Positions 6,350 through 35,652 of a stretch of DNA of 35,652 nt are shown here, in pieces (position 1 is the first letter of the stretch; each line of letters begins with the position of its first letter). The DNA is from a virus. The notes under the pieces are model-generated. The model had not been told where the DNA came from, searched no databases, and was given only the letters and a program-made list of their open reading frames with translations. The position numbers and the translations under genes were made by a program. The stretch lies in IMG/VR virus record IMGVR_UViG_3300007542_000076, positions 1 through 35,652 of that record. One strand, given 5' to 3'.

Positions 6350-8596
6350 ATGGAAGAATTAATCTTTAGAACGAAAGTTGAATCCGGCAAATCTGTAAAG
6401 GAAACGGAAGAACTAGAAGACGCGATAAGCGGCGTAGGTTCCGCGGCCGAGGAAGCCGGCGAAAAAGGTGCAGCGGCGCTCGCAAAACTGAACAAAGAAA
6501 CACAGGAAGGCGCACACAGTTTCGAGCACGCGAACGAACTCGTAGCAAAGTACATAGAAATTTCACGCGTAGCGGGCGAAGAAACGCCAGTAGGCCAGGA
6601 AGCCATACGCATAGCGAAAGAACTCGCCGAAGCTATCGAGCACATCGGTACAGTTTCCGCAGACACGGCGGCGCATTCAGGAAATCTTGAAGCGTCCCTG
6701 GCAACGTCCGAAACACTTGTGCAGGGTTACGGCGCCATCGCAGGTGCACAGGCGGCCGTCGGTATTGAAAGCGAAGCGCTCACAGAATCGATGGAAAAAC
6801 TGGAAGGTGTGGAAGCGCTTCTGGTAGGTATAGAGCAAGTGCGTGCCGGCTTATCGAAAGAAGGCGTAGTCCTGACAAAAGCAAAGGTTATATGGTCCAA
6901 AGCGGCTACGGCTGCAGAGTATATCTACGCCTTAGCCGTAGGGACTACCACAGGCGCTATGAAGGCACTTCGTATCGCGATGCTCGCTATACCCCTAATC
7001 GCTATTATCGCGCTTATCGTGGCGGCTGTGGCAGCCCTAGCGTCGTTTTTCAGTGCAGCCGAAGTAGCCGAAGACATAAACAACAAACTAAACGCGTCTT
7101 TTGAGCGCCAAACAGAACTGCTCGAAGCGAACGAACGTGCATTCCGTAGGAACGCAAAGAACAAACGCGATTTAATGGTATCGCAGAACGCCACTGCAGA
7201 CGAACTTTTCGAAGCGGAAAAAGAACGCCTGGAAGGTGAAGAAGTTCTGCGGAAAAAGAATCTGAAAACCTTAAAAGCGATAATTCCTGTTAAGACTTTG
7301 GCCTACAAACAAGCACTGGCAGAGGAAAACTGGGAACTTGCAAAGACGATCCGCGAAGAAACCAAAGCGATGCGCGACAAGTACGCAGGCTTTCGCGAGT
7401 TGGACGGCCAATACGCCATAGATCGACAGATCCTGGAAAACGAACGCCGCAACGAAATAGCGAAGGAAGCAGAACAGGAAGAAAAAGAGCGTGCGCAACG
7501 GGGCCGAACGTACGCCAAAAAAGCGGCGGACCGTCGAGCGGCCGAAGCGAAAACGCGACTGGAAGAACAGCGACTTTTTGAAGATCTTCTGGTCGAAAAT
7601 ATCGAAGATTCCGAGGACCGCCAGTTAGCCAAATTGAAGCTAGCCAATAAACGCGAACTCGAAGAGATAAAAACGAAGTATGGCGAGAACAGCAAAGTAG
7701 TAGCCGAAGCCGAAGCAAAACAACTTACAGAATATTACGCTTTGCTTGAAACTTTCCGCGTAGCAAGGGACCGCGCCAACGACGCCGAAGAACTTAAAAA
7801 GCGGCAGAACGAACAGACTGCAGCCGAAGCAGCTCGACGCAGCGAAAAAGCACGCCTGGAAGGCAAACTTATTCAGATGCGCGAAGACGCCGAAGCTGTC
7901 CTGGAAATTGAAAAGGAATTAGCCCTTTTTGTAATGGAACAAGCACTGGCCCAGGAGAACGCAACCGAGGGCGAAAAGTTCAAAATTCGACAGGAATATG
8001 CAGAGAAGATCGACGCACTAAATGCGCAAGTAGTTGACAAGGAAAAGCAACGGCAGAAGGACTTGGCCGAAGCTACGCGCACCACTACAGAAATGGGACT
8101 GGACGCAGCGCAAGGACTTGCAGACGCGTTCTTCGATTGGAAAATAGGCAAAGCCGAAGAAGGTTCGAAAGCAGAATTGGAAGCGGAAAAAAAGAAATTC
8201 GCCATTAACAAGAAACTGCAGATAGCACAAGCCATCATGCAGGGAATACAATCTGTACAGGCGGCCTACAGTTCTGGTTCGGCTATTCCGATAGTCGGGG
8301 CCGTTACCGGTCCGGCGTTCGCTGCGGCTGCGGGAATCGCTGCGGCGTTGAACGTTGCGAAGATCAAAAATACAAGTTTCAGCGGTGGCGGTTCTGGGTC
8401 CGTAGCTTCTGCAGCTACGCCCTCAGTGAGCATTCCCACCGTGCAGGGCCAGACCGAAGACAATTCGACAACGACCGAAACGCAAGGCCTAGAAGATACA
8501 AGCACAGTAACTTCGCAGGTGGTAATTTTGCAAAGCGAATTAGATTTGTCTTTCGCCGAAAATGAGGAAGTTAGTATCGTTTCAAATGTAGGCTAG
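6350..8596 (+). CDS. Tail tape measure protein
   Basis: 748 residues, highly helical and rich in Ala, Glu and Lys. It has a hydrophobic stretch at about residues 207-234 (IAMLAIPLIAIIALIVAA), long coiled-coil segments through the middle, and a second hydrophobic Ala/Gly-rich region near 640-680 followed by a Gly/Ser and Thr-rich tail. This is the usual layout of a siphovirus tape measure, which sets tail length inside the tube and is ejected with the DNA. By the general rule of about 0.15 nm per residue the tail would be roughly 110 nm. The stop TAG shares CTAG (8593-8596) with the stop of the opposing gene. Confidence 0.8.
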   Translation: MEELIFRTKVESGKSVKETEELEDAISGVGSAAEEAGEKGAAALAKLNKETQEGAHSFEHANELVAKYIEISRVAGEETPVGQEAIRIAKELAEAIEHIGTVSADTAAHSGNLEASLATSETLVQGYGAIAGAQAAVGIESEALTESMEKLEGVEALLVGIEQVRAGLSKEGVVLTKAKVIWSKAATAAEYIYALAVGTTTGAMKALRIAMLAIPLIAIIALIVAAVAALASFFSAAEVAEDINNKLNASFERQTELLEANERAFRRNAKNKRDLMVSQNATADELFEAEKERLEGEEVLRKKNLKTLKAIIPVKTLAYKQALAEENWELAKTIREETKAMRDKYAGFRELDGQYAIDRQILENERRNEIAKEAEQEEKERAQRGRTYAKKAADRRAAEAKTRLEEQRLFEDLLVENIEDSEDRQLAKLKLANKRELEEIKTKYGENSKVVAEAEAKQLTEYYALLETFRVARDRANDAEELKKRQNEQTAAEAARRSEKARLEGKLIQMREDAEAVLEIEKELALFVMEQALAQENATEGEKFKIRQEYAEKIDALNAQVVDKEKQRQKDLAEATRTTTEMGLDAAQGLADAFFDWKIGKAEEGSKAELEAEKKKFAINKKLQIAQAIMQGIQSVQAAYSSGSAIPIVGAVTGPAFAAAAGIAAALNVAKIKNTSFSGGGSGSVASAATPSVSIPTVQGQTEDNSTTTETQGLEDTSTVTSQVVILQSELDLSFAENEEVSIVSNVG

Positions 8597-17681: not shown

Positions 17682-18043
17682 GCGGATCTAAATTGGCGAA
17701 TTAGTTCGATTATGTGGTCTTCGAATCCTAAAATCCAAGCGTCGGCGCCTTCCTTGCTGTCGAAGTAGCCCACTTTGCCTTCGAAGTTCCCAACGTAGAA
17801 ACCTTCTTTTTTAAGGCGGTTAATATATGCCACCTGTAACGGGTCCGGTTTTTCGCCTGGGGCTTTCACTTCGGCGAAGCCTGTAAAACCTTTCCACAAT
17901 ACCTGCCGGTCGGGCACGCCTGCGTCGTACTGCGGGTTATTCTTTTTCGCCCACATTTCATTTGCGCGGCATTGCTTCACGAAGTATTTTTCGATAGCGA
18001 CTTCGCTCAAAGCTTTCGTTTTCTTAGTCGAGGTTTCTTTCAT
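17678..18043 (-). CDS. VRR-NUC domain nuclease
   Basis: 121 residues from ATG at 18043. This start is preferred over 18061 because the context AAAAATACTATGAA is shared with the polymerase gene start. VRR-NUC features of the PD-(D/E)XK fold are present: Glu14/Glu18 in the first helix, GVPDR with Asp45, FAEVKAPG with Glu58 and Lys60, and a Gln in the next helix (PLQVAYINRLK). These stand-alone phage nucleases act on branched DNA. It lies between the primase-helicase and SNF2 genes, overlapping both. Confidence 0.85.
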   Translation of the reverse strand: MKETSTKKTKALSEVAIEKYFVKQCRANEMWAKKNNPQYDAGVPDRQVLWKGFTGFAEVKAPGEKPDPLQVAYINRLKKEGFYVGNFEGKVGYFDSKEGADAWILGFEDHIIELIRQFRSA

Positions 18044-20354
18044 AGTATTTTTGCGTTCCATAGATTTTAAATTTTGCTGTTGTTGTTACCCCGGTCCACC
18101 CTTCCAGGCCGCGAAGTATATCGTTAACCTCGCGCGTATTGTAGCGGGTCATGTCTTCTTTTTCTTTGCCCAGGCATTCGCACCATACTTCTGCAGTGCA
18201 TACGCGGTCCCTGGTAACCTTTCCGGCGCTTTTGGTGTTGTCTAACCAGTTCCGGCGCTCGTAGACGTCTAGCAGGTCCCAACCTTCGGGCAGTAGTCTT
18301 TCGAGATAGGCCAAAATCATTCCCTGGCGTTCGTCTTTTTCGCTGTGCAGATCTTGCGTTATTCGCGCGGCAGCTTCTACCTTTTTGGATAGGTACAAAG
18401 TTTCGCCCGCTTCGTAAAGGTGAACCGCTTCGGCCCAGAGTTGGTCTACTTCTTTGGGCATGTCTGTAAACACTTCCTTTTTTACTTCGTCCTGCTCGCA
18501 CATAACCGGCCAAAATCTTCTATTCCCGGTCGGGTCTTTCAGGAATTCCCTGTTATTCGTCGTACCGAAGAAAACGCACTGCCGCTTGAATGTTTCAGGC
18601 GAGCGAGCGTAGGCCGGTCGAAAGTCGTCTTTCTGTTTTGAAACGAAATGCTTAATGGCTTCGACTTCGGATTTTTTGAAGGCTGAAAGTTCCGCTATTT
18701 CAATGATCCAGGCGCCCTGTAATTGTTCCAAAGATTCTTTGCCCTGGACAGTGGAAAAACTATCTGAAAACCAACCGCGGCCCAACGCGTTCAGAAACGA
18801 AGATTTTTTAATCCCTTGCGCCCCAACTAGCACTAGCATGTAATCGAATTTGCATCCGGGGTCCAAGATCCGCGCCACGGCCGCGACCATCATTTTTTTA
18901 AAAGCTTCACGAGTGAAAAGCGTATCTGCAGCGCCGAAGTAGTCCTGCAGTGTTGTAGTTATCCGGCTTGTGCCGTCCCATTCCAGGCCGTTCAAATATT
19001 CCCGTATAGGGTGCACGCTGTTGTTCTCGATTTCCAGGGCTAGGCTGTCGTCGATTTTATGCGCAGAACAGATCCCATATATAATTTCGACGTAGTTTCG
19101 AACGCCGGAATAGTCCACGTTCCGAACTGGCTCGGGTTCGTCGATTTCTCGCCAGGGCGCGTTTCTGTTTATGTACCTTTTCGAATCGAATTGATTATAG
19201 CTGAAAAGCTTCTGCAGGTGTTCGTCTTTTTTGAATATTAGATTTAAGTTTTGAGCCGAAGAAATAAAATTCCCTTTGGCATCTATTTCTAAATCGATCA
19301 TCCAGTCGATGTCTTCGTCTTCCTGCTCGGGTGAAGTTTTCGTCTTCTCTTTTGCTAGTGTGAATTTTACGCCTTTGTCTTCGGTGCATAACTGTTCCAT
19401 TCGCTTAAAAGACTGCGTGCCGTTTGCGTCTTTGTCCAGGTGCCCGTATAGGTGCAGCCGGACCAAATCAAACGAGTTGCAAAGCCTGCCGGAAATTGGG
19501 TCTGTGCCGTGGTGGCTATAGGCCCAAATATCGTCGTAAACCATAAGGCCCGAAGCAGTGCTGCCGCCTGAAAATGTGTACCGGTCTTCGGTAGTTGCGG
19601 AATAGACTTCCGGCAGGAATTTTTCGATAACCTCAGCGATTCCATAAGTTCTGCAGAATGCACCGACTACGCCTTTTTTCAAGCAAGGGTCTTCCTGTTT
19701 GTCTGCAGAATTCCGAACGCCTTCTGTTTGCTTTTCAGAAGTGGGCCACAAACTAGAATCGGTCCAGTCTGCGTATTCGTCCAGTACGTCGTCCGCGCAT
19801 AAAAATTCGCCTTTCTGCTCGGCCCAGTAGTACTTCACGTCTTTAGGTCTGCTCGGCCAGAACATTAACCGGTTCACGTCGAACGTGGTCGGGTCGAAAA
19901 GTTCTATGCCTAAGTTCCCGGCAACGCGTCGCGATATGGCCGAATATTCGTCCGGGCTTACTTCGCGGTCCAAGGGAATAACGAGCCGCAGTCTGGGGCT
20001 TTTTTCGCTGTGTTTGTGCGTAGCGTGAAGAAACGCGCTGCAGCTATATTCCATTTCGAAATCGAAGAAGAAATCCGCCGTGCCGAAATCTACGTCGAGC
20101 GTCAATAGTTGGCGATGTCCTACGGTGCTTTTGTTGCGTCGTCCGCCAACTAGATAGCCGCCCACGTAGCCGCCCACGTCCTTTATGGCGCTTTGCTCAG
20201 TCTTGGACGCTCGAAGGTATTCTTTTAAAGTTTCGTCAGTCTTAACGCTTCGCTTTAAGCGCTCCACGAATTCCGGCCAGGTCGTTTGCCTGTTCTTCCA
20301 CAGTTTTGTATCTGCGTGCGATCCTGTGGCTATGTCTATAGTTCCTTCGTGCAT
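18024..20354 (-). CDS. Primase-helicase: AEP-like primase fused to VirE/D5-type ATPase
   Basis: 776 residues. The N-terminal part has archaeo-eukaryotic primase motifs: LDVD (Asp87, Asp89), a His motif around 113-115 (ATHKHSEKSPRLRL), and FDVNRLMFWPSRP (Asp159). A middle segment (about 251-295, GGSTASGLMVYDDIWAYSHH, then a region with Cys282 and FDLVRLH) is typical of phage primases. The C-terminal VirE-type helicase shows Walker A GAQGIKKS (501-508), Walker B-like WIIEIAEL (539-546), a sensor-type CVFFGTTNN (583-591), then TGNRRFWPV. It would prime and unwind phage DNA at replication forks. It overlaps small genes on both sides. Confidence 0.85.
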   Translation of the reverse strand: MHEGTIDIATGSHADTKLWKNRQTTWPEFVERLKRSVKTDETLKEYLRASKTEQSAIKDVGGYVGGYLVGGRRNKSTVGHRQLLTLDVDFGTADFFFDFEMEYSCSAFLHATHKHSEKSPRLRLVIPLDREVSPDEYSAISRRVAGNLGIELFDPTTFDVNRLMFWPSRPKDVKYYWAEQKGEFLCADDVLDEYADWTDSSLWPTSEKQTEGVRNSADKQEDPCLKKGVVGAFCRTYGIAEVIEKFLPEVYSATTEDRYTFSGGSTASGLMVYDDIWAYSHHGTDPISGRLCNSFDLVRLHLYGHLDKDANGTQSFKRMEQLCTEDKGVKFTLAKEKTKTSPEQEDEDIDWMIDLEIDAKGNFISSAQNLNLIFKKDEHLQKLFSYNQFDSKRYINRNAPWREIDEPEPVRNVDYSGVRNYVEIIYGICSAHKIDDSLALEIENNSVHPIREYLNGLEWDGTSRITTTLQDYFGAADTLFTREAFKKMMVAAVARILDPGCKFDYMLVLVGAQGIKKSSFLNALGRGWFSDSFSTVQGKESLEQLQGAWIIEIAELSAFKKSEVEAIKHFVSKQKDDFRPAYARSPETFKRQCVFFGTTNNREFLKDPTGNRRFWPVMCEQDEVKKEVFTDMPKEVDQLWAEAVHLYEAGETLYLSKKVEAAARITQDLHSEKDERQGMILAYLERLLPEGWDLLDVYERRNWLDNTKSAGKVTRDRVCTAEVWCECLGKEKEDMTRYNTREVNDILRGLEGWTGVTTTAKFKIYGTQKYYERNLD

Positions 20355-20505: not shown

Positions 20506-22413
20506 TTATTTTTGAAAATATTTAACTTCTTCGCCTTTCGCATCCAGAGGAAAACCGCTCGCCCAACTGGGTAGAACTTTCATAATGTTTTCCAGTTCTT
20601 CTTTTTGGCCGTCTTCTACTACGATTTCATCGTGCACGTGCATTGCTATGTCGTGCCCTTCTTCGTGAACGCGGACCACGGCTTCGGCCATGAAATCACG
20701 GGCCACGGCCTGTACTATGTTCTCGGTCAATTTTCCGCCGTAGGAATCTACCCAGGTCCATTTTCGGGTTTTCGGGTGCACCCACATGTACTGTATTCCT
20801 TTTTTGCCATATTCGTTGAAAGCTATTCTGGCTTTGTGGTAGCTTAACGTTCGACCCGAGGGCAGTTTTATTGTCATGCTGTCGCGGTCCGTATCGAAAA
20901 CCAGTGCGCCCAGGGTTACTTTGGTTTTCAATCGAATCGACTTTGTAGCTGCATTCTGAACGGCTCGCCAGTAGTCCACTATCGCAGGATTCGCCTTGCG
21001 CCAAACTACCACTAAATTTTTCATTTCCGGTATAGTTAGGCCCATATCTTCGCCGCCCATCAATTTAAGCGCATTGTAACCGCCTTGAAAGCCCAGGGCC
21101 AATTCTGAAACTTTGCCTTTCGCCCTGTCCGCTGAGGTTATTTCTGCCACTGGTATTTTGAACATCTTCGAAGCGGATTCCTTGTATATGTCTTTCTGGC
21201 CTGCTTCGAAAACCTTCATGCGCCAACGCTCATTTGCGAGCCACGCTAGGACCCGCGCTTCGATAGCGGAGTAATCCGACATAGTTAGGTGCGATCGTCC
21301 AACAGAGGGCACGAAAGCGGTACGCACAAGCTGCGCCAAGGTGTCCTGCACGTCTGCAAATAACATCTGTAGCAGTTCGAAGTCTCGGTCCTTGACGATT
21401 TCACGGGCGCAGTCGAGATCTTCGATATAATTTCTAGGCAGGTTCTGCAACTGGATAAGCCTTCCGGCCCATCGGCCAGTATGCGCCCCGTAGAACTGGA
21501 ACAGGCCGCGCACTTTGTCGTCGTCCATTATGCAATTTAGCATAGCATCGTACTTCTTAATACTGGTACGCCCTAGCCTTTGTCGTATGCCGATCATTTC
21601 CATAACTCGCCCATCCTCAAAACTCAAATCCGCTAACGTTCCTTTAGTGAGATTTGGTAATTTTGTCCCTGTCCGGCGTTCGATCCAGTCTTGAAGTTGG
21701 GCGATGCTATTTGGGTTCTGTAACCCGGTTATTTTCTTCGCCCTTTCGAGCAGTCGCGTTCTGTTTATTTCGTTCAAATGCAGCACACTGTTAACGAATT
21801 CCAAATCGACGGTTATTCCGTTTTCGTTTATGAGTTGATCGATTTGGTACAGGTGCTGTTCGAACTCCGGTATAGAGTTATGCTTTAACCGTTCATAGAC
21901 GGCCACTTCTGCGACGACATCCTGCCGGCAGTACTCTAAAAAGTTTTCCCATTTTTCGGCGTCGTGCTCAGGTAGATTTCTTTCGCGGCCTTCGTTGGTC
22001 TTCGTCGGTTTGCAGGGAATGCAAAAATAACGGATATGTGCGGACCCGGCAGCGCTTTTCGCCTGGTCGCCTAAGTTCAAAGCTTCCGAAACGCCTTTAA
22101 GCGATAACGGCAGGCCGTTGTAACTTGCTAGAACTGCAGTGCAGGTCCATTCGTTCCCGACGTCCAGGCCCATAGCCCCAAGGCACACCCGTTCGAAAGT
22201 AGCATTGTGCGCCAACTTCCGAACGTTTGTATCTTGAAGATCCGCCAGAACTTCTTCGGGTACGTCGTCCCATTCGCACACGTGGACTTTCTTTCCGTAG
22301 GAGTATGCCAGGCAGAGTATTTCGAAATCAATCGAATCTGCGTACTTATACACCCCGGAAGTTTTCAGGTTCACAGAACTAAAAGTCTCTATATCAATGT
22401 GCAAATGCTTCAT
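20506..22413 (-). CDS. Family A DNA polymerase with 3'-5' exonuclease domain
   Basis: 635 residues from ATG at 22413. The longer frame to 22524 would overlap the previous gene, and the AAAAATACTATGAA context is shared with the VRR-NUC start. The exonuclease domain shows DIET (Asp7, Glu9), HNATFE (69-74) and YCRQD (Asp165). The polymerase domain shows motif A SDYSAIEAR (Asp380), motif B around Arg430-Lys434 to GGYNA, and motif C HVHDE (Asp595, Glu596). This is the phage replicative polymerase type found beside VirE primases and SNF2 helicases. All key residues are present, so it should be active with proofreading. Confidence 0.95.
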   Translation of the reverse strand: MKHLHIDIETFSSVNLKTSGVYKYADSIDFEILCLAYSYGKKVHVCEWDDVPEEVLADLQDTNVRKLAHNATFERVCLGAMGLDVGNEWTCTAVLASYNGLPLSLKGVSEALNLGDQAKSAAGSAHIRYFCIPCKPTKTNEGRERNLPEHDAEKWENFLEYCRQDVVAEVAVYERLKHNSIPEFEQHLYQIDQLINENGITVDLEFVNSVLHLNEINRTRLLERAKKITGLQNPNSIAQLQDWIERRTGTKLPNLTKGTLADLSFEDGRVMEMIGIRQRLGRTSIKKYDAMLNCIMDDDKVRGLFQFYGAHTGRWAGRLIQLQNLPRNYIEDLDCAREIVKDRDFELLQMLFADVQDTLAQLVRTAFVPSVGRSHLTMSDYSAIEARVLAWLANERWRMKVFEAGQKDIYKESASKMFKIPVAEITSADRAKGKVSELALGFQGGYNALKLMGGEDMGLTIPEMKNLVVVWRKANPAIVDYWRAVQNAATKSIRLKTKVTLGALVFDTDRDSMTIKLPSGRTLSYHKARIAFNEYGKKGIQYMWVHPKTRKWTWVDSYGGKLTENIVQAVARDFMAEAVVRVHEEGHDIAMHVHDEIVVEDGQKEELENIMKVLPSWASGFPLDAKGEEVKYFQK

Positions 22414-23245: not shown

Positions 23246-23312
23246 CGAAAAGCGCGTGCCCCACTGTTGAAGTGTTACACGCGCTGAGGTTAAAAGTGCG
23301 GCAATTTACTAT
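23246..23312 (-). repeat. Duplicated 67-bp hairpin element, copy 2
   Basis: Same element as at 22833-22899. On the transcript it starts at the stop of the ssDNA-binding protein gene. The outer stem is 23251-23258 with 23278-23285. One of the two differences lies in the apical loop (GTTGA here, GTCGA in copy 1, plus strand) and the stem is unchanged. Confidence 0.8.
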
Positions 23313-23845
23313 AATAAATCGTCTTCGTCGTCGTCCAGGTCGCCGAAATCTTCATCGATTTGGTCCGCAGTGTAGGAACCGCCTAAGCTTTCGCCGTCGC
23401 GCAATTTCTGCACTGAATTAAGGCCGCAGGCTACACCTTTGTTCCCGCCAGTGTTGAAGGCGTACAGGTTCATCGAAACGCGACCGTAGCAACCACTGTA
23501 GATTTCGCGTTCTTCCATTATTTCCTGTCGGTCTTCGTCCACCAGAATAGGTTTGCTAATCGAATTCGCAGTGAAAAACATCATGCCTTCATACTCTTCG
23601 CCGTCCTTGTCTTCGTCACCGTCACGCAGCGGAGTTTTCAGGCCTTTGGTGCCTTTCAAAATGTGTTGATTTTCGGCTATGACTTTTTTCACGGCTTTTT
23701 CGAATCGCGCTATAGCGGCTTTGTCCTTTTTAGGAATTAAACCAGAAACGCTATATTTCTTCGGGCCGTCCTCTGTGATCGATCGGGGTTCGTGAACTGT
23801 TACGTAGCTTAGACGCACTTCACCTGTTACTAATTTTTCTGCCAT
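23309..23845 (-). CDS. DUF2815-like ssDNA-binding protein
   Basis: 178 residues, resembling DUF2815, phage single-stranded DNA-binding proteins related to T7 gp2.5. It has the typical start (TGEVRLSYVTVHEPRSI, then KYSVSGLIPKKD), a central block with MFFTANSISKPILVD, the YSGCYGRVSMNLYAFN segment, and a strongly acidic C-terminal tail (DEDFGDLDDDEDDLL). Such tails contact polymerase and helicase partners. It lies downstream of a promoter at 23904-23947 with a leader of about 58 bases and is separated from the MazG-like gene by the repeat. Confidence 0.85.
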   Translation of the reverse strand: MAEKLVTGEVRLSYVTVHEPRSITEDGPKKYSVSGLIPKKDKAAIARFEKAVKKVIAENQHILKGTKGLKTPLRDGDEDKDGEEYEGMMFFTANSISKPILVDEDRQEIMEEREIYSGCYGRVSMNLYAFNTGGNKGVACGLNSVQKLRDGESLGGSYTADQIDEDFGDLDDDEDDLL

Positions 23846-24379: not shown

Positions 24380-25633
24380 TTAGCCGAGCAGGTCGAAGTC
24401 GTCGTCGAAGTCGTCGCCCCTACTCAGTGCGGGTCTTCGGTCGGATTCGTCCACTAGCGTAGGTTTTCCGGCGTTGTAAGTAATGAAAGGCCCTAGAAAT
24501 GCTTCCATATTTTTTTTGCCTAGGCCTTTTTGTAACTCGGTTAAACCTCGCAGCTTTGTTTGTTTGTATAGGATCTCGGGCACGCTTTTTTTGCGCAAAG
24601 CGTCCATGGCCTTTTCGGCTTCTGGAATAGACCTTCGACCGCGACCGGCTACGAGTTTCAAGCCGGGCCATTTTTTGCCGCCCAGGGCAGAGTTGTAGAT
24701 ATGTTCTTCGACTGCATTTAGGTAGGACTTAACGCGGTCCGCTAGCAGGTAGATTTCCATAACGTCTTCGAAGTGTAAACTATGCACGTCGGTGTCGCCC
24801 AGTTCCACAGAATCCGGCGCGAAGTCTTCGTCTGCAAGTCTCAGCATTTCGTCTTTCAATGCAGGGCACAATACTTTTGCGTCGCAGAATCTGCACCAAT
24901 CGCCCGGCACCAATTCGCCGCGGCCAGAAAATGCAATTTTGGCCTGGGGCTTAACGAAGTTTTCCGCCCATTCCAGAAGATCTTCGCTCGAAATATCCCA
25001 CGTCGAAACGGCGTCCAATCGTGGCTGCACAACTGTAAGCCGTATAGTGTGTATTTCATGCAAAACGCTGTACTTGTCGTAGGCACCTAAGCCATATATT
25101 TTTAACTGGTCGTTATCAACTGCGCTAACTCGCACACCCATTCCGAATTTCAAGTCTGTGACGTAAAGGACGCCGGCCGATAAAGCGATAAAATCGCCAG
25201 TGCCGAAGCCTTCCGGTATGTACGCTTCTAACGAGACTTTTTCTTCTATGAGTATAAGAGCGCCAGTACTATTAGTTCGTGCTTCTGCGACCTGTTCTAG
25301 TACAAAATTCACGTAGTCTTCGACTGGTTCGAGCATGTCTAAACTGAAAAGTTCGTGCGCTTTCAGTTTTAGTTTGGTGCCGTGGTACGCTTCTTTGTCG
25401 ATCAGCTTCAAACGGTATCGCAGTTCGTTTTCAGAAATTTCATGCGCCAGGGTTCCTTCTGCGGCGAAGGTCGTTTCTTCAATGTCGCCCAAAAGTAGCG
25501 CCAGTTCGATTTCTGGCACGGGTTCGATTTCGTCCGCCATACGGGCCGAGGGTGTGCAGTTTAGCCACCTGGAAGCCGAAGAAGCGGAAAGGACCGCATG
25601 TGCCCTTTCCGCGTGATTAATCTTGCCAGACAC
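24380..25633 (-). CDS. DUF2800-like PD-(D/E)XK exonuclease with Fe-S-type cysteines
   Basis: 417 residues. It matches DUF2800, phage relatives of the RecB/Cas4 nuclease family. Features: SASSASRWLNCTPSARM with Cys26, GTLAHE (His64), Glu131 (IEEKVSL), FGTGDFIAL (Asp147), DLKFG (Asp160, Lys162), QLKIYGLGAY, and a late Cys triplet 247, 250, 256 (DWCRFCDAKVLC), which with Cys26 could hold a 4Fe-4S cluster. It likely processes DNA ends in replication or recombination with the DUF2815 protein. The start is GTG at 25633, sharing its G with the preceding TAG. Confidence 0.85.
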   Translation of the reverse strand: MSGKINHAERAHAVLSASSASRWLNCTPSARMADEIEPVPEIELALLLGDIEETTFAAEGTLAHEISENELRYRLKLIDKEAYHGTKLKLKAHELFSLDMLEPVEDYVNFVLEQVAEARTNSTGALILIEEKVSLEAYIPEGFGTGDFIALSAGVLYVTDLKFGMGVRVSAVDNDQLKIYGLGAYDKYSVLHEIHTIRLTVVQPRLDAVSTWDISSEDLLEWAENFVKPQAKIAFSGRGELVPGDWCRFCDAKVLCPALKDEMLRLADEDFAPDSVELGDTDVHSLHFEDVMEIYLLADRVKSYLNAVEEHIYNSALGGKKWPGLKLVAGRGRRSIPEAEKAMDALRKKSVPEILYKQTKLRGLTELQKGLGKKNMEAFLGPFITYNAGKPTLVDESDRRPALSRGDDFDDDFDLLG

Positions 25634-26118
25634 TACAGTGCTGTTATGAAATCGTGATATTCCTGGAAGTCGTCTTCTTCCAAAGAACTAACGTTCTTCA
25701 CTTTCAATTTTGCCAACTTCTTTTTGATCGCGTCACGGTTGGCCGTGGAAGCTTTCACCTTTTTAGCTGTCAAAGTTCGAAGCGTCGCCAGATCGATTTC
25801 AGCTTCTTCGTCGTCTAAATCGTCGAAATCTTCATCGTCTTCGTCTTCTTCCTCTGCGGCTTTTTTCGCAGCGGCTGCAGCTTCTTTTTTCTTCTTAGCT
25901 TCACGACTTTTTCGCGCACGTTCACGGGCCGCAGCTTTTTTCTTTTCTTCCGCGTCGTCTTCGTCGTCGTCCTGGTCTTCGTCGTCTGCCGCCGTTGTTT
26001 TTCGAAGTTTTTTCGTTGGGGCTTCGCCGCCGCTTAACGTGTCCATGAACGCTTTCATAGCGTCGGTCTGTTCTGTGTTGTCCAAGTCAATAGACAACGT
26101 TACTTGCATCTTGTTCAT
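25633..26118 (-). CDS. Highly charged protein of the DUF2800/DUF2815 module
   Basis: 161 residues. An N-terminal strand (MQVTLSIDLDNTEQ) is followed by alternating acidic runs (DDEDQDDDEDDAEE), a long Lys/Ala/Glu helix (about 58-90), another acidic run, and a C-terminal folded part (TLRTLTAKKVKAS then a DAIKKKLAKLKVKNVSSL helix pair). Proteins of this kind often precede DUF2800 genes in Bacteroidota phages. The function is unknown, and a charged scaffold for replication proteins is only a guess. A 23-base segment at 25964-25986 is identical, on the opposite strand, to the minisatellite of the gene at 35177. Confidence 0.65.
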   Translation of the reverse strand: MNKMQVTLSIDLDNTEQTDAMKAFMDTLSGGEAPTKKLRKTTAADDEDQDDDEDDAEEKKKAAARERARKSREAKKKKEAAAAAKKAAEEEDEDDEDFDDLDDEEAEIDLATLRTLTAKKVKASTANRDAIKKKLAKLKVKNVSSLEEDDFQEYHDFITAL

Positions 26119-26525
26119 ACTGATACTGATTGATTTATTATTATTTGATCTAATTCGCGAAAGTATTCCGCGAAAGGTTTTTGAGAAAAGCCAATAACGT
26201 GCACCGCTATTTCTTTTTCTAAATGGTAAATTTTTGTAACGCCTGTAGCGGGGGAGTATATCGCGCAGTAATTGTCTTTGCTAAATCTCACTACGTCGTC
26301 GTGCGTTGTTGTTTTCCAGTAGAGGGCGTCCATGTATAGCGCATCTATAGAAAGGCCCGTAAAAATGGACAGCCTATAAATTTGTTCCTCTTTCATTCTC
26401 GCCCTGCTGAGTAACAAGCGCGACAAGGCGGCCGCAGGGTGAAGGTTTGCAGGGAATAGAGCCTGCGCCAATTGGCCGCGGTCCAAATCTCTGTCCTCAA
26501 TTACTCGTTTTAAATCGATTCGCAT
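26115..26525 (-). CDS. HTH transcription regulator (XRE-like)
   Basis: 136 residues from ATG at 26525. An upstream in-frame extension to 26657 lies inside the previous gene. Residues 1-65 form a helix-turn-helix domain: MRIDLKRVIEDRDLDRGQLAQALF, a central helix, then EEQIYRLSIFTGLSIDALY. The second half is beta-like and may bind a partner or dimerise. It is the only clear classical DNA-binding regulator in the leftward arm and is therefore the best candidate to bind the TTTGAAT/ATTCAAA sites. It is coupled by ATGA overlap to the next gene. Confidence 0.6.
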   Translation of the reverse strand: MRIDLKRVIEDRDLDRGQLAQALFPANLHPAAALSRLLLSRARMKEEQIYRLSIFTGLSIDALYMDALYWKTTTHDDVVRFSKDNYCAIYSPATGVTKIYHLEKEIAVHVIGFSQKPFAEYFRELDQIIINQSVSV

Positions 26526-27752: not shown

Positions 27753-27794
27753 CAATATACGCATTATCTTTGAATCTTGCAACTATTATTCAAA
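27753..27794 (-). promoter_or_regulatory. Repeated early promoter-operator, copy 1
   Basis: TATATTG (27753-27759), 19 bases to GTTGC (27779-27783), and inverted arms TTTGAAT/ATTCAAA (27769-27775 and 27788-27794). The ATG at 27748 follows TATATTG after AAGT. It differs from the other copies in the spacer next to the -7 element. Confidence 0.8.
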
Positions 27795-28292: not shown

Positions 28293-28334
28293 CAATATAC
28301 GTACAATGTTTGAATCTTGCAACTATTATTCAAA
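28293..28334 (-). promoter_or_regulatory. Repeated early promoter-operator, copy 2
   Basis: TATATTG (28293-28299), arms at 28309-28315 and 28328-28334 with GTTGC between them. The leader AAGT precedes the ATG at 28288. Near-identical to copies 3 and 4 over the core. Confidence 0.8.
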
Positions 28335-31067: not shown

Positions 31068-31109
31068 CAATATACGCACAATGTTTGAATCTTGCAACTG
31101 TTATTCAAA
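31068..31109 (-). promoter_or_regulatory. Repeated early promoter-operator, copy 3
   Basis: TATATTG (31068-31074), GTTGC (31094-31098), arms at 31084-31090 and 31103-31109. The leader AGGT precedes the ATG at 31063. The similarity with copy 4 extends to about 31140, beyond the operator. Confidence 0.85.
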
Positions 31110-31424: not shown

Positions 31425-31667
31425 TTAGTTCCAGGCGTTTGATTCTCTTTGCTGAAACATTATTTTTCCGTCGATCTCTTTTTCACGATAGTGCAGACCT
31501 ACTTCGTTTCCTGTTTTGTAGTGGGCTTTGTTGGCGTCTTCCTTGGAGAAGAACCAACAGCCGGAACCTTTTATGAAAATGTGATCTAAAACGTTTTTAG
31601 TGTATTTGTTCATCTTGAATTCTCGCGATTCAATCGTAGGGGCTGCAGTGTTATTTGTATCTTTCAT
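31425..31667 (-). CDS. Hypothetical protein
   Basis: 80 residues from ATG at 31667, placed four bases after the TATATTG element of promoter copy 4. The longer frame to 31733 reads through the operator and is rejected. It has a polar N-terminus, then MNKYTKNVLDHIFIKGSGCW and FFSKEDANKAHYKTGNEVGL. No family recognised. Confidence 0.65.
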   Translation of the reverse strand: MKDTNNTAAPTIESREFKMNKYTKNVLDHIFIKGSGCWFFSKEDANKAHYKTGNEVGLHYREKEIDGKIMFQQRESNAWN

Positions 31668-31671
31668 ACTG

Positions 31672-31713
31672 CAATATACGCACAATGTTTGAATCTTGCA
31701 ACTATTATTCAAA
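31672..31713 (-). promoter_or_regulatory. Repeated early promoter-operator, copy 4
   Basis: TATATTG (31672-31678), arms TTTGAAT/ATTCAAA at 31688-31694 and 31707-31713. The leader CAGT precedes the ATG at 31667. The repeat continues to about 31743 and includes the end of the next gene upstream. Confidence 0.85.
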
Positions 31714-31726
31714 GAATTAACAAATT

Positions 31727-32245
31727 TTAACATTTGCGCACTATCGGCGAAACAATGGCGTGCCGTCGAATTATGTCGGACCTCAGCTTCTTATCGGCTG
31801 CGCTGTACTGGGTGGCTTTCTGCAGTAACGGCAGGAAACCGTCGGACCACTTACGAAAGTTTGCATAGCTGCGCAACTCCGGCAGGTCCTTATTTCGTAC
31901 ACCGTACAACGGCAGCAAGGCGCCAGGCTTTTCCTGTTGAGGTTCTTCGGTTTCTGCGTACAGAACTATCGAACTGATTATGAAAAATACATTTTCCTGT
32001 TCGTATGGCTTGAAGCCGGACCGGTACAACGGCTGTTTGAACACACATTTATTCGTGCTGAGGTCCAGAAAATTAAAACCTTTGGGCGAGGTCTGTATAA
32101 ACGCAGCGCGGATCTGCTTTGCTTTTTTGGTTCGGTTGCCTAGCACATACGTGCGGCCCAGGGTTAAATTGTACGGCGTCCGGGTTTGTTGGAAATTACG
32201 CCACTTTACGTTTTTGCCCCGTGCGGGCACTTCTGTTAGTTTCAT
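31727..32245 (-). CDS. Hypothetical protein
   Basis: 172 residues, no family recognised. It is basic overall with many aromatic residues (GRTYVLGNRTKKAKQIRAAF; NFLDLSTNKCVFKQPLYRSG; VFFIISSIVLYAETEE). The C-terminal ~12 residues are encoded within the extended repeat around promoter copy 4, including the TAA stop. It starts four bases after the stop of the 178-residue gene. Confidence 0.6.
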   Translation of the reverse strand: MKLTEVPARGKNVKWRNFQQTRTPYNLTLGRTYVLGNRTKKAKQIRAAFIQTSPKGFNFLDLSTNKCVFKQPLYRSGFKPYEQENVFFIISSIVLYAETEEPQQEKPGALLPLYGVRNKDLPELRSYANFRKWSDGFLPLLQKATQYSAADKKLRSDIIRRHAIVSPIVRKC

Positions 32246-33165: not shown

Positions 33166-33855
33166 CTAGGACCACAAGCGCTGCGCCAGTTTAACTTTCT
33201 TGGTTAATTCCTTTACTTTCTTATTTGCGTAGCTTAGAGACATGCTGTGCGCACGTTCAATGGTTCCGGCTTTCATGCCTGCGTGCTGTGCTTTTGCTTC
33301 TTCCAGTAAGTGTTCGAAGTACTCCAAAGATTCCGGCATTGATAAGTCGATCTTATTCGCCTGGGCCTTCCAGTACTCCGCTTTGCTTAGGTGGCTTTCT
33401 GCCTTGTCGCGAAGTTCGATATTCTTGTCCATTGCTGCAGTCGCATTCGCTATCGCGCGGCGGTGTCTTCTTTCGCTGTGGTGACCCACTAGAATAGGTT
33501 GACCGAAAGGTATTCCGCTTTTGCTTTCGCTAAGGTCCGAAGCTGCGAAGCGTTCGTCTGCTTTGGTGCTCGCTGAGGTTGCCCAAGATTCCAGGCGTTC
33601 AGCTTTTGCCTTTGCGCGTTCCTGCGAGTTGTAACCGTCTGCACGCACGATTGAGTAGTGGAAGAAACCGTCTTTTACTCCTATAGAATTGAATACGATA
33701 CATTCGTGCTCGGTTCCGTATCTGGTAGTAAGCGTGATCGTGGCCCCTTTTTCATGCTGTTGCGGGCATCTGGCTATGAAGACATTCGGCGCGAATTTTT
33801 TGTACGTATTTTCTGTCGCTGTTCCTTGGTCCTGTGTGTCTGTTGCGTTATTCAT
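33166..33855 (-). CDS. DUF3560 protein
   Basis: 229 residues. The central part matches DUF3560: a charged helix with repeated Ala/Glu/Arg (QERAKAKAERLESWATSAST), the signature GIPFGQPILVGHHSERRHRR (114-133), then a helix with MDKNIELRDKAESHLSKAEY. Such proteins are common on phages and plasmids of Bacteroidota, and their biochemical role is not established. The N-terminal ~75 residues form a beta-like segment (ATITLTTRYGTEHECIVFNS). Confidence 0.8.
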   Translation of the reverse strand: MNNATDTQDQGTATENTYKKFAPNVFIARCPQQHEKGATITLTTRYGTEHECIVFNSIGVKDGFFHYSIVRADGYNSQERAKAKAERLESWATSASTKADERFAASDLSESKSGIPFGQPILVGHHSERRHRRAIANATAAMDKNIELRDKAESHLSKAEYWKAQANKIDLSMPESLEYFEHLLEEAKAQHAGMKAGTIERAHSMSLSYANKKVKELTKKVKLAQRLWS

Positions 33856-33909: not shown

Positions 33910-34143
33910 CTACGCTAAGTTGTCCACTATCGCTTCGACCTTTATTCCGCCGCGTCGGTTCATGTAGTGCGGATTGGTTAAAGTGCTTTTGCTTAACATG
34001 ATGTTGTGCTTTTTTCCTTTGTAGGTGTGAAAGCCTTTGTAGTACTTCGGCGTTTCTTCTGTGACAGTCATTGCTACTGTGTGCATGTGCACTACTGTTC
34101 CTACTTTTATGTTCTTCTGGGTTGCTTGTATCATCGTTTTCAT
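33910..34143 (-). CDS. Small beta-rich hypothetical protein, first gene of the early arm
   Basis: 77 residues from ATG at 34143. The start is set by promoter copy 5 directly upstream. The sequence alternates strand-like segments (VGTVVHMHTVAMTVTEETPK; TYKGKKHNIMLSKSTL) and basic residues, suggesting a small beta-barrel. No family recognised. As the first gene after the divergent region it would be among the earliest expressed. Confidence 0.6.
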   Translation of the reverse strand: MKTMIQATQKNIKVGTVVHMHTVAMTVTEETPKYYKGFHTYKGKKHNIMLSKSTLTNPHYMNRRGGIKVEAIVDNLA

Positions 34144-34147
34144 ACTG

Positions 34148-34189
34148 CAATGTACGCACAATGTTTGAATCTTGCAACTATTATTCATT
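34148..34189 (-). promoter_or_regulatory. Repeated early promoter-operator, copy 5 (diverged)
   Basis: TACATTG (34148-34154) instead of TATATTG, GTTGC retained, ATTCAAA half-site at 34164-34170. The outer arm is degenerate (minus-strand AATGAAT in place of TTTGAAT). The leader CAGT precedes the ATG at 34143. It drives the whole early arm. Confidence 0.7.
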
Positions 34190-34232
34190 TAATTTTTGTT
34201 AAATAAACAAGAAAACAATAAAAGTGCGCTTT

Positions 34233-34477
34233 GTTTACTTTCTTGTTTACGCGTGCACGCACCATAAAACCTGGAAAATCTGTATAAGTAAACAAGTAAA
34301 CAATAAAATAAGCCTTTAACTTTATATTATTACTTTTAGTAGTAAATTAGCGTATAAATATAGGATATTACGTATATATCGCATAAAGGTTTTTCGTTTG
34401 TTTATTCGTTTACTTGTTTACTTTTCGCCTACAAGCCCCGCCACCACTGGAAAACAAAGCTAAACAAGAAAGTAAAC
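34233..34477. repeat. Nested, centre-symmetric inverted repeats
   Basis: Four sites: GTTTACTTTCTTGTTTAC (34233-34250), GTAAACAAGTAAAC (34288-34301), GTTTACTTGTTTAC (34408-34421) and CTAAACAAGAAAGTAAAC (34460-34477). The inner two are exact inverted copies. The outer two match at 17 of 18 bases. Both pairs share the same centre, 34354.5 and 34355. Further single TAAACAAG-like motifs lie at about 34203 and 34394. Confidence 0.9.
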
Positions 34478-34524
34478 GATAGTTTAGCATTGTTTCGCCG
34501 GTGGTCTATCGGGAATATTTTGCA

Positions 34525-34532
34525 TATATTTG
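34525..34532 (+). promoter_or_regulatory. Late-arm promoter element
   Basis: TATATTTG, a full match to the Bacteroidota -7 consensus, six bases before the ATG at 34539. No clear TTG stands at the usual distance, and the early operator half-site is absent. Confidence 0.55.
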
Positions 34533-34538
34533 GACTGT

Positions 34539-34964
34539 ATGCAGCACGAAAAATTATATAGAATAGCGAGTAACAGACACGGCCAATTGAACCGCGACGT
34601 AGTGCACGACACGTTCTGCCAGTTCGGCGAAGACCTACCCAATACGGCCTACCTTCGAACCTGCATAAATAACGCGAAGCCGGAACCTTTACAGGAACGC
34701 TTCGACGCGAACCAAATCGAACTAGACCAAAACGCGGACCCGTTCTTCGACGAAAGCCTGTACAGACAATTGCTTCCGGTCCTGGATTCGATACGCGAAA
34801 AGTACACGCGCGAAGTAGATACCTTTCTAGCTTGTAAAGTGAACGGCTCAATGCAGGCCTTTTCCGAGCGGTCCGGCATATCGAAATCGGTATTGGAGAA
34901 AATATGTAACTTTGTTAAATATGAAATACTTACAGAATTTTACCGACTACAGAACCTGGATTGA
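34539..34964 (+). CDS. Sigma-70-like regulator at the head of the late arm
   Basis: 141 residues from ATG at 34539. A TTG start at 34530 would lie inside the promoter. Residues ~1-50 resemble sigma region 2 (EKLYRIASNRHGQLNRDVVHDTF, then NTAYLRTCINN). The C-terminal part resembles region 4, with a helix-turn-helix (SMQAFSERSGISKSVLEKIC at about 106-125). Bacteroidota phages often carry such a short sigma-like protein before the terminase genes, where it may activate late transcription. The similarity is moderate, so it could be another HTH protein. Confidence 0.5.
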   Translation: MQHEKLYRIASNRHGQLNRDVVHDTFCQFGEDLPNTAYLRTCINNAKPEPLQERFDANQIELDQNADPFFDESLYRQLLPVLDSIREKYTREVDTFLACKVNGSMQAFSERSGISKSVLEKICNFVKYEILTEFYRLQNLD

Positions 34965-35199: not shown

Positions 35200-35652
35200 T
35201 GCGGACATCGAAACGCTTCAACCGAAATTCGAACTAGGTACACACGACTGGACCAAAGACGAAAAACTGTGCATCGAATCTGCCTATTTCGCGATCACAA
35301 AAGTAACGACAGGAAAAGGCCGAACGGTAGACCTAGGCTGCGCCGAGTGCGTTTCTTCTGCGGCTCAAATTGTGAAAAACTACATAGCTTTGGTTGAGAC
35401 TGCAGAAGCTGCAGAGAACGAAACAAAAACGCTTCGAGTTCTTCCGCCTTCACACAATTGGAAAGACACGCACAAAACGATCGACGCGGAAGCTGAGCGC
35501 GTAGGGTGTGAATTCCCGGAAGACGTCACACGAAAGGACGATAAAATCACGCACCTGGAAGCGTTCATCGTAGAGCACCCATACGCAGACGAAGACCAGG
35601 ACGACGAAGACCAGGACGACGAAGACCAGGACGACGAAGACCAGGACGACGA
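35177..35652 (+). CDS. HeH/SAP-like protein with acidic repeat tail, N-terminal part
   Basis: The ATG at 35177 opens a frame that runs off the window end and finishes at 91-93. Residues 1-85 are helical with a Cys pair (LGCAECVSSAAQ), a layout common upstream of terminase genes in Bacteroidota phages. Residues ~105-135 (DAEAERVGCEFPEDVTRKDD, then ITHLEAFI) resemble a HeH/SAP-type nucleic-acid-binding motif. The C-terminus is a tail of QDDED repeats. Its place just before the terminase genes suggests a link with packaging or late regulation, but this is inferred. Confidence 0.75.
   Translation, partial: MKRITTIDADIETLQPKFELGTHDWTKDEKLCIESAYFAITKVTTGKGRTVDLGCAECVSSAAQIVKNYIALVETAEAAENETKTLRVLPPSHNWKDTHKTIDAEAERVGCEFPEDVTRKDDKITHLEAFIVEHPYADEDQDDEDQDDEDQDDEDQDD
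35597..35652 (+). repeat. 15-bp coding minisatellite, right end; terminal overlap
   Basis: Three complete 15-bp units and 11 bases of a fourth, identical to bases 1-56. This overlap closes the molecule into a circle. It is either an assembly overlap of a circularly permuted genome or the result of repeat collapse. Confidence 0.95.

Follow-up and report, generated by a model that had tools for sequence, protein, structure and literature searches.

By analyzing the whole of virus record IMGVR_UViG_3300007542_000076 (35,652 bp, hereafter the window), we found that DNA replication of a Bacteroidota phage very probably starts at positions 34203-34479. The stretch holds short repeated words (iterons) in mirrored order around an AT-rich core. 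We hold with considerable confidence that it is the origin of a circularly mapping phage, in which the GTAAACAA iterons are bound by the phage's own primase-helicase VapE, the core is melted and replication starts bidirectionally.

Geometry of the array

Twelve copies of the 8-bp word GTAAACAA/TTGTTTAC (0-1 mismatch) are found within 34203-34479, compared with 27 such matches in the remaining 34.1 kb, i.e. 0.27 per 345 bp. Around position 34355 they are ordered as << >> << (89-bp core, 24% GC) >>> <<< (Table 1). The first-pass annotation of this DNA had described two inverted repeat pairs sharing one midpoint at about 34355, and both were confirmed: the 18-mer GTTTACTTTCTTGTTTAC at 34233-34250 is complementary to its inverted partner at 34460-34477 at 17 of the 18 positions (midpoint 34355), and the 14-mer GTAAACAAGTAAAC at 34288-34301 matches its partner at 34408-34421 exactly (midpoint 34354.5). 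The AT-rich centre with GCGTATAAATATAGG was likewise found, at 34350-34364, while the core word proposed at that stage, TAAACAAG, is better replaced by GTAAACAA. The two pairs are real, but the array reaches beyond them, to 34203-34218 on the left and to 34450-34479 on the right.

A motif-free scan for mirror symmetry over the whole window placed the top centre at 34360, with a score of 35 (runner-up 22). The genome-wide maximum in 60 Markov-shuffled genomes averaged 19.2, the highest being 34, just below the observed score, and none of 2000 local shuffles scored above 27. A mere chance arrangement in AT-rich DNA, as might be suspected from the AT-rich words, is contradicted by the symmetry score, the site density and the conservation described below; conservation already refutes it, and we give it next to no credence.

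Table 1. Positions of the array components, flanking elements and genes discussed in the text.
Feature	Position	Strand	Remarks
Distal left word pair ATAAACAA GAAAACAA	34203..34218	-	<<; each with 1 mismatch against GTAAACAA
Outer left pair TTGTTTAC-N4-TTGTTTAC	34231..34250	+	>>; includes 18-mer 34233-34250; partner 34460-34477
Inner left tandem pair GTAAACAA GTAAACAA	34288..34303	-	<<
AT-rich core	34309..34397	.	89 bp with 24% GC; contains TATAAATATAGG (34353-34364); presumed to unwind
Inner right triple TTGTTTAT TCGTTTAC TTGTTTAC	34398..34421	+	>>>
Outer right set GAAAACAA..CTAAACAA..GTAAACGA	34450..34479	-	<<<; includes 34460-34477
vapE, primase-helicase	18024..20354	-	proposed initiator of 776 aa; VapE-like domain at aa 454-670; PF05272 E 2.3e-86
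VapE C-terminal domain	18024..18407	-	aa 650-776 (127 residues); predicted winged-helix-like; proposed iteron-binding domain
Family A DNA polymerase	20506..22412	-	same replication operon; PF00476 E 1e-25
Gp2.5-like single-strand binding protein	23309..23845	-	phrog_112 E 9.8e-60
Cro/CI-type helix-turn-helix protein	26118..26525	-	from alignment, AlphaFold2 model and Foldseek; in relatives, first gene downstream of early-operon array
First open reading frame of leftward early arm	33910..34188	-	listed start overlaps promoter element
Leftward early-promoter-like element TGCAAGATTCAAACATTGTG	34157..34176	-	just outside array; first 13 bases at same place in G001
Putative Bacteroidota -7-like element TATATTTG	34525..34532	+	before rightward gene 34539; chance matches frequent
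First rightward-arm gene	34539..34964	+	141 aa, unknown; homologues in G001, G004

Conservation of the layout and turnover of the word

As a search of named phages with the DNA of the 2.1-kb region gave no match, relatives were sought by means of proteins and layout. In one of these (G001/L002), whose protein beside the array is 48% identical to that of this phage, there is again an AT-rich core between the inner arms, and the word is CG-AAACAA in 8 of the 12 sites. The outer spacing is identical, the outer arms (here 34231-34250 and 34460-34477) being separated by 211 bp in both phages and by 212 bp in G004/L006. The arrays of G004/L006 and G003/L007 agree in layout, the word in G003 being TT-AAACAA. 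Left sites equivalent to the distal pair at 34203-34218 are present in G001, G004 and G003, the cores of which are 85-100 bp long, and the inner tandem repeats have a period of 7-9 bp in all relatives. The layout is also conserved in Croceibacter phage P2559Y, an isolate, and Elizabethkingia phage TCUEAP1 has two arrays of the unrelated word TGTCTCAA, their mirrored arms measuring 130 and 61 nt. The commonest form among the relatives is <<<> << core >> <>>>. Conservation of the sites and their spacing in related genomes had been set beforehand as the test on which the first-pass annotation was to stand or fall, and both proved to be conserved.

The layout pattern by itself is unspecific. When viral contigs were scanned for the inner layout alone, half of the records retrieved (14 out of 28) showed no module gene; these 14 are probably chance hits in AT-rich DNA. 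Nine of the 28 have a VapE domain and five more are fragments with other replication-module genes, to be compared with a VapE match of any strength in 1070 of the 50,697 phage records, 344 of them reaching E<=1e-60. A terminase search of bacterial genomes gave distant prophage matches only, none of them with an array, and no clear array was found in PM708P3. Two related AT-rich cores sharing AAAAGTTTCTAAGGAAAATAGTGAAAAC occur in BF486P3 (L031), at 7890-7975 and 31510-31590, ahead of the operon led by a helix-turn-helix (HTH) gene and of gene 32009, respectively, but no clear iteron word was made out there.

Additional elements were seen within some arrays. At L007 8107-8121 and L006 10982-11001 another conserved word, resembling AACCCTTATAAATACTAG, is found between the iteron sets and may bind a further factor. 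A terminator-like hairpin, AGCCCCTATTAATAGGGGCTTTTTT, is situated between the outer and inner iteron sets of the L068/L069 (G016), L070/L071 (G021) and L061 left half-arrays, as if upstream transcription were stopped within the array.

VapE as the candidate initiator

The sole solved relative of VapE found by sequence is PDB 7pds (E 7.8e-89), described as PriRep1 with double-stranded DNA; PriRep1 is named in the literature as a protein of SaPI5, one of the Staphylococcus aureus pathogenicity islands (SaPIs). Judged by sequence, VapE is a homologue of this staphylococcal-island helicase. The C-terminal domain of VapE was modeled by AlphaFold2 with a mean pLDDT (predicted local distance difference test score) of 84.7, and the only PDB matches of the model with E<1e-3 in Foldseek were six 7pds chains (E 9.5e-6, TMq 0.69), which points to the same fold as the 7pds DNA-binding domain. 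In SaPI Rep the iterons are recognized by the C-terminal domain, and the related Cch2 behaves likewise in vitro (PMC7581432).

Should the arrays belong to VapE, an array directly 3' of vapE would be expected in phages with a gene order like that of phage-inducible chromosomal islands (PICIs), and this was found to be so. Bacteroides phage F4, using the same word as this phage, has ten GTAAAC/GTTTAC words with a << core >> arrangement between vapE and the VRR-NUC gene. Other words, together with an AT-rich core, occupy this gap 3' of vapE in phiFL4A (GGATAC), FutureBee (CTGCAACA), Emery (GTAACAG) and CL31 (GGGACAAG). Where vapE abuts the next gene, namely in this phage, G004, P2559Y, TCUEAP1 and BF486P3, the arrays (in BF486P3 the related AT-rich cores) are instead found ahead of operons, and in SJC12 an array of GGATAGAT precedes the replication operon. 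What all these phages have in common is vapE, an exonuclease (homologous to 24380-25633), a Gp2.5-like protein, VRR-NUC and an SNF2-type helicase, among which VapE would be the natural sequence-specific binder.

As a self-loading helicase of the SaPI/PICI Rep family (VapE/SF3 type), VapE would bind the GTAAACAA iterons through its winged-helix-like C-terminal domain. The mirrored iteron sets would put helicase on either side of the 89-bp core, which would melt, two helicases would be loaded in opposite directions, and synthesis would be begun by polymerase A together with the Gp2.5-like protein and VapE's primase portion. On this view replication would start near 23.8 kb and at the record ends (about 43.14 kb) in P2559Y, and at 2.4-2.6 kb in F4. 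Of the two functions suggested for the symmetry in the first-pass annotation, that of loading an initiator in both directions has the better support, given the conserved sites and spacing, the encoded SaPI-Rep-type helicase and the position of relatives' arrays 3' of its gene. The other, in which a regulator would join two divergent promoters by a loop, is not favored, as the layout persists between co-directional operons and directly 3' of vapE.

Positions of the arrays relative to the operons

Two arrays each were found in G012, G016, G017, G021, G026, G028, G033 and the isolate P2559Y, in most cases with a common word. One of the two lies ahead of the HTH-led operon and the other ahead of the small terminase gene (terS) where the latter was identified, i.e. 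not in G017 and G026. This phage, G001, G004 and G003 have a single array, at the point where the early and late arms diverge. In the two-array genomes the genes next to an array are mostly co-directional, and in P2559Y all genes around the array run one way. As the mirror symmetry is kept between co-directional genes, divergent promoters do not explain the layout.

These positions would suit an operator array. On this reading a regulator of phage transcription, with the Cro/CI-type HTH protein 26118-26525 as the likeliest candidate, would form a loop over the AT-rich centre and so control the early and the late promoters. The arrays stand before the HTH-led early operon and the terminase operon in two-array genomes, genomes whose two arms diverge from a single gap have just one array, and the HTH protein is predicted to have a lambda-repressor-like fold. 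Its homologues were, however, not found in the array-bearing phages F4 (with the same GTAAAC word), phiFL4A, FutureBee, CL31 and Emery. Moreover, the four other copies of the early promoter element of 34157 are not accompanied by an array, a symmetric dimer is ill-suited to direct repeats of 7-9 bp, and the complete mirror symmetry persists ahead of single one-way promoters. We consider an operator unlikely, and weaker as an explanation than an origin.

Two proteins were rejected as binders of the arrays in general: the HTH protein, absent from the phages with an array 3' of vapE, and protein 34539-34964, which was found only in G001, G004 and one fragment and is absent from the other array-bearing phages.

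Several observations also weigh against a plain origin. Two-array genomes put one array before each main operon, as would suit an operator; arrays at both fronts are not explained by an origin alone and leave room for a dual role. The array of this phage lies far from vapE, unlike the origins of PICIs, and an alignment of the HTH protein and VapE sorted by word class did not pin the change of word to particular residues, which for VapE counts on the same side. GC skew gives the origin no independent support. It turns where gene direction turns in this record and shows no turn at the arrays of P2559Y, a one-strand genome; since it follows the coding strand it is uninformative, neither supporting nor opposing an origin, and was rejected as evidence.

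In a dual element, the iterons of the origin would also regulate, the bound initiator coupling replication to early and late transcription, and a second array would either help in replication, as the cis replication region does in P4, or be a second origin. Arrays of the same word at both main operon fronts speak for this, and the single array of this phage speaks against it; we regard it as quite improbable. An array just ahead of terS, as seen in P2559Y, TCUEAP1, G012, G016, G021, G028 and G033, could instead suggest a packaging start (pac/cos) bound by the small terminase. The same array is also found before the HTH operon or 3' of vapE, distant from terS, and the small terminases of array-bearing phages span PHROG families 1482, 606 and 51 without a matching change of word, making this reading highly improbable.

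Comparison with known origins

The form that most resembles the proposed origin is the PICI origin, in which an AT-rich region is invariably flanked by two sets of iterons (PMC6092414). The PICI/SaPI origins served by Pri-Rep (SaPIbov1, SaPI5, EcCICFT073; PMC6092414, PMC7581432) are alike in having an element-encoded homologous VapE/Rep helicase and an element-specific iteron word. They differ in that the elements studied here are tailed phages that encode a capsid, a portal and a terminase of their own. Furthermore, PICI origins lie directly 3' of rep, as the arrays do in F4, phiFL4A, FutureBee, Emery and CL31, whereas the array of this phage is situated ~14 kb from vapE (the end of which, 18024, abuts the next gene) and most relatives with two operons carry the array twice. 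The mirrored order of the iterons in this phage may be a further difference. That the genome itself is a PICI satellite was ruled out by its own terminase and portal and by a collinear structural arm kept in relatives. The SCCmec (staphylococcal cassette chromosome mec) origin of Cch2 (PMC7581432) is similar as regards a mobile-element helicase, a C-terminal domain acting on short iterons, and an A-family polymerase and a partner like a single-strand binding protein, but it has three direct AAGTG iterons 3' of cch2 and is primed by a separate CCPol-MP pair.

Origins of the PICI type are known from earlier work, but no account of one in a tailed phage turned up in the literature searched, from which most subscription papers were missing, so that such an account may exist. 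The earlier remark that no described phage origin of this form was recognized agrees with that search, while the form as such has been described for PICI satellites (PMC6092414).

More distant parallels exist. Phage P4 likewise combines primase, helicase and origin binder in one protein, alpha, with its iterons in two cis regions (ori1 and crr), but word and layout are unrelated and alpha is at most a distant relative. Herpes simplex virus oriS and the origins of papillomaviruses and simian virus 40 (SV40), the latter two with superfamily 3 (SF3) initiators, also have an AT-rich core with initiator sites in inverted order on its two sides, and often lie between promoters; these are eukaryotic viruses with unrelated or very distant initiators, and the likeness is an analogy only. 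The lambda ori likewise has iterons beside an AT-rich unwinding region, but they are one-sided and inside gene O, and the O protein is no helicase and loads host DnaB. For lambda-type ori in lambdoid phages, see PMC7466680.

The PICI-like origin form would extend to tailed phages of Bacteroidota, Firmicutes and Corynebacterium with a homologous initiator, giving a predicted origin for a large phage group, the VapE-match records. The natural series of initiator/iteron word pairs could lead to a recognition code of SaPI-Rep-type helicases, and the finding offers a testable path by which satellite replicons may have arisen. Two-array genomes pose the new question of why an origin copy stands before each main operon. 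More tentatively, all this may belong to a widespread phage replicon, in which PICI-type origins left the initiator gene, often as two copies with one fast-changing word at early and late operon promoters, VapE linking replication firing to the early-late switch and PICI replicons being one branch; we see this wider picture as possible rather than probable.

Flanking genes and genome map

Two arms diverge from the array gap. The structural arm runs rightward; the replication arm runs leftward, and its second gene encodes a DUF3560 protein (33166-33855; PF12083, E 5e-37). Copies of TGCAAGATTCAAACATTGTG with 0-3 mismatches (0.02 expected) are found before early genes at 27762-27781, 28302-28321, 31077-31096, 31681-31700 and 34157-34176, all on the minus strand, and these five apparently form a family of early promoters. 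Listed open reading frames such as 31425-31733 and 33910-34188 begin upstream of the element and share the spurious N-terminus NNSCKIQTLCV. As the listed start of 33910-34188 overlaps the promoter element, its true start is probably further downstream.

Both ends of the record (1-100 and 35600-35652) lie in one tandem repeat encoding QDDED, so that the genome probably has a circular map and the assembly was broken at the repeat. Contig L009, which is nearly identical, starts within or next to this repeat, as the record does.
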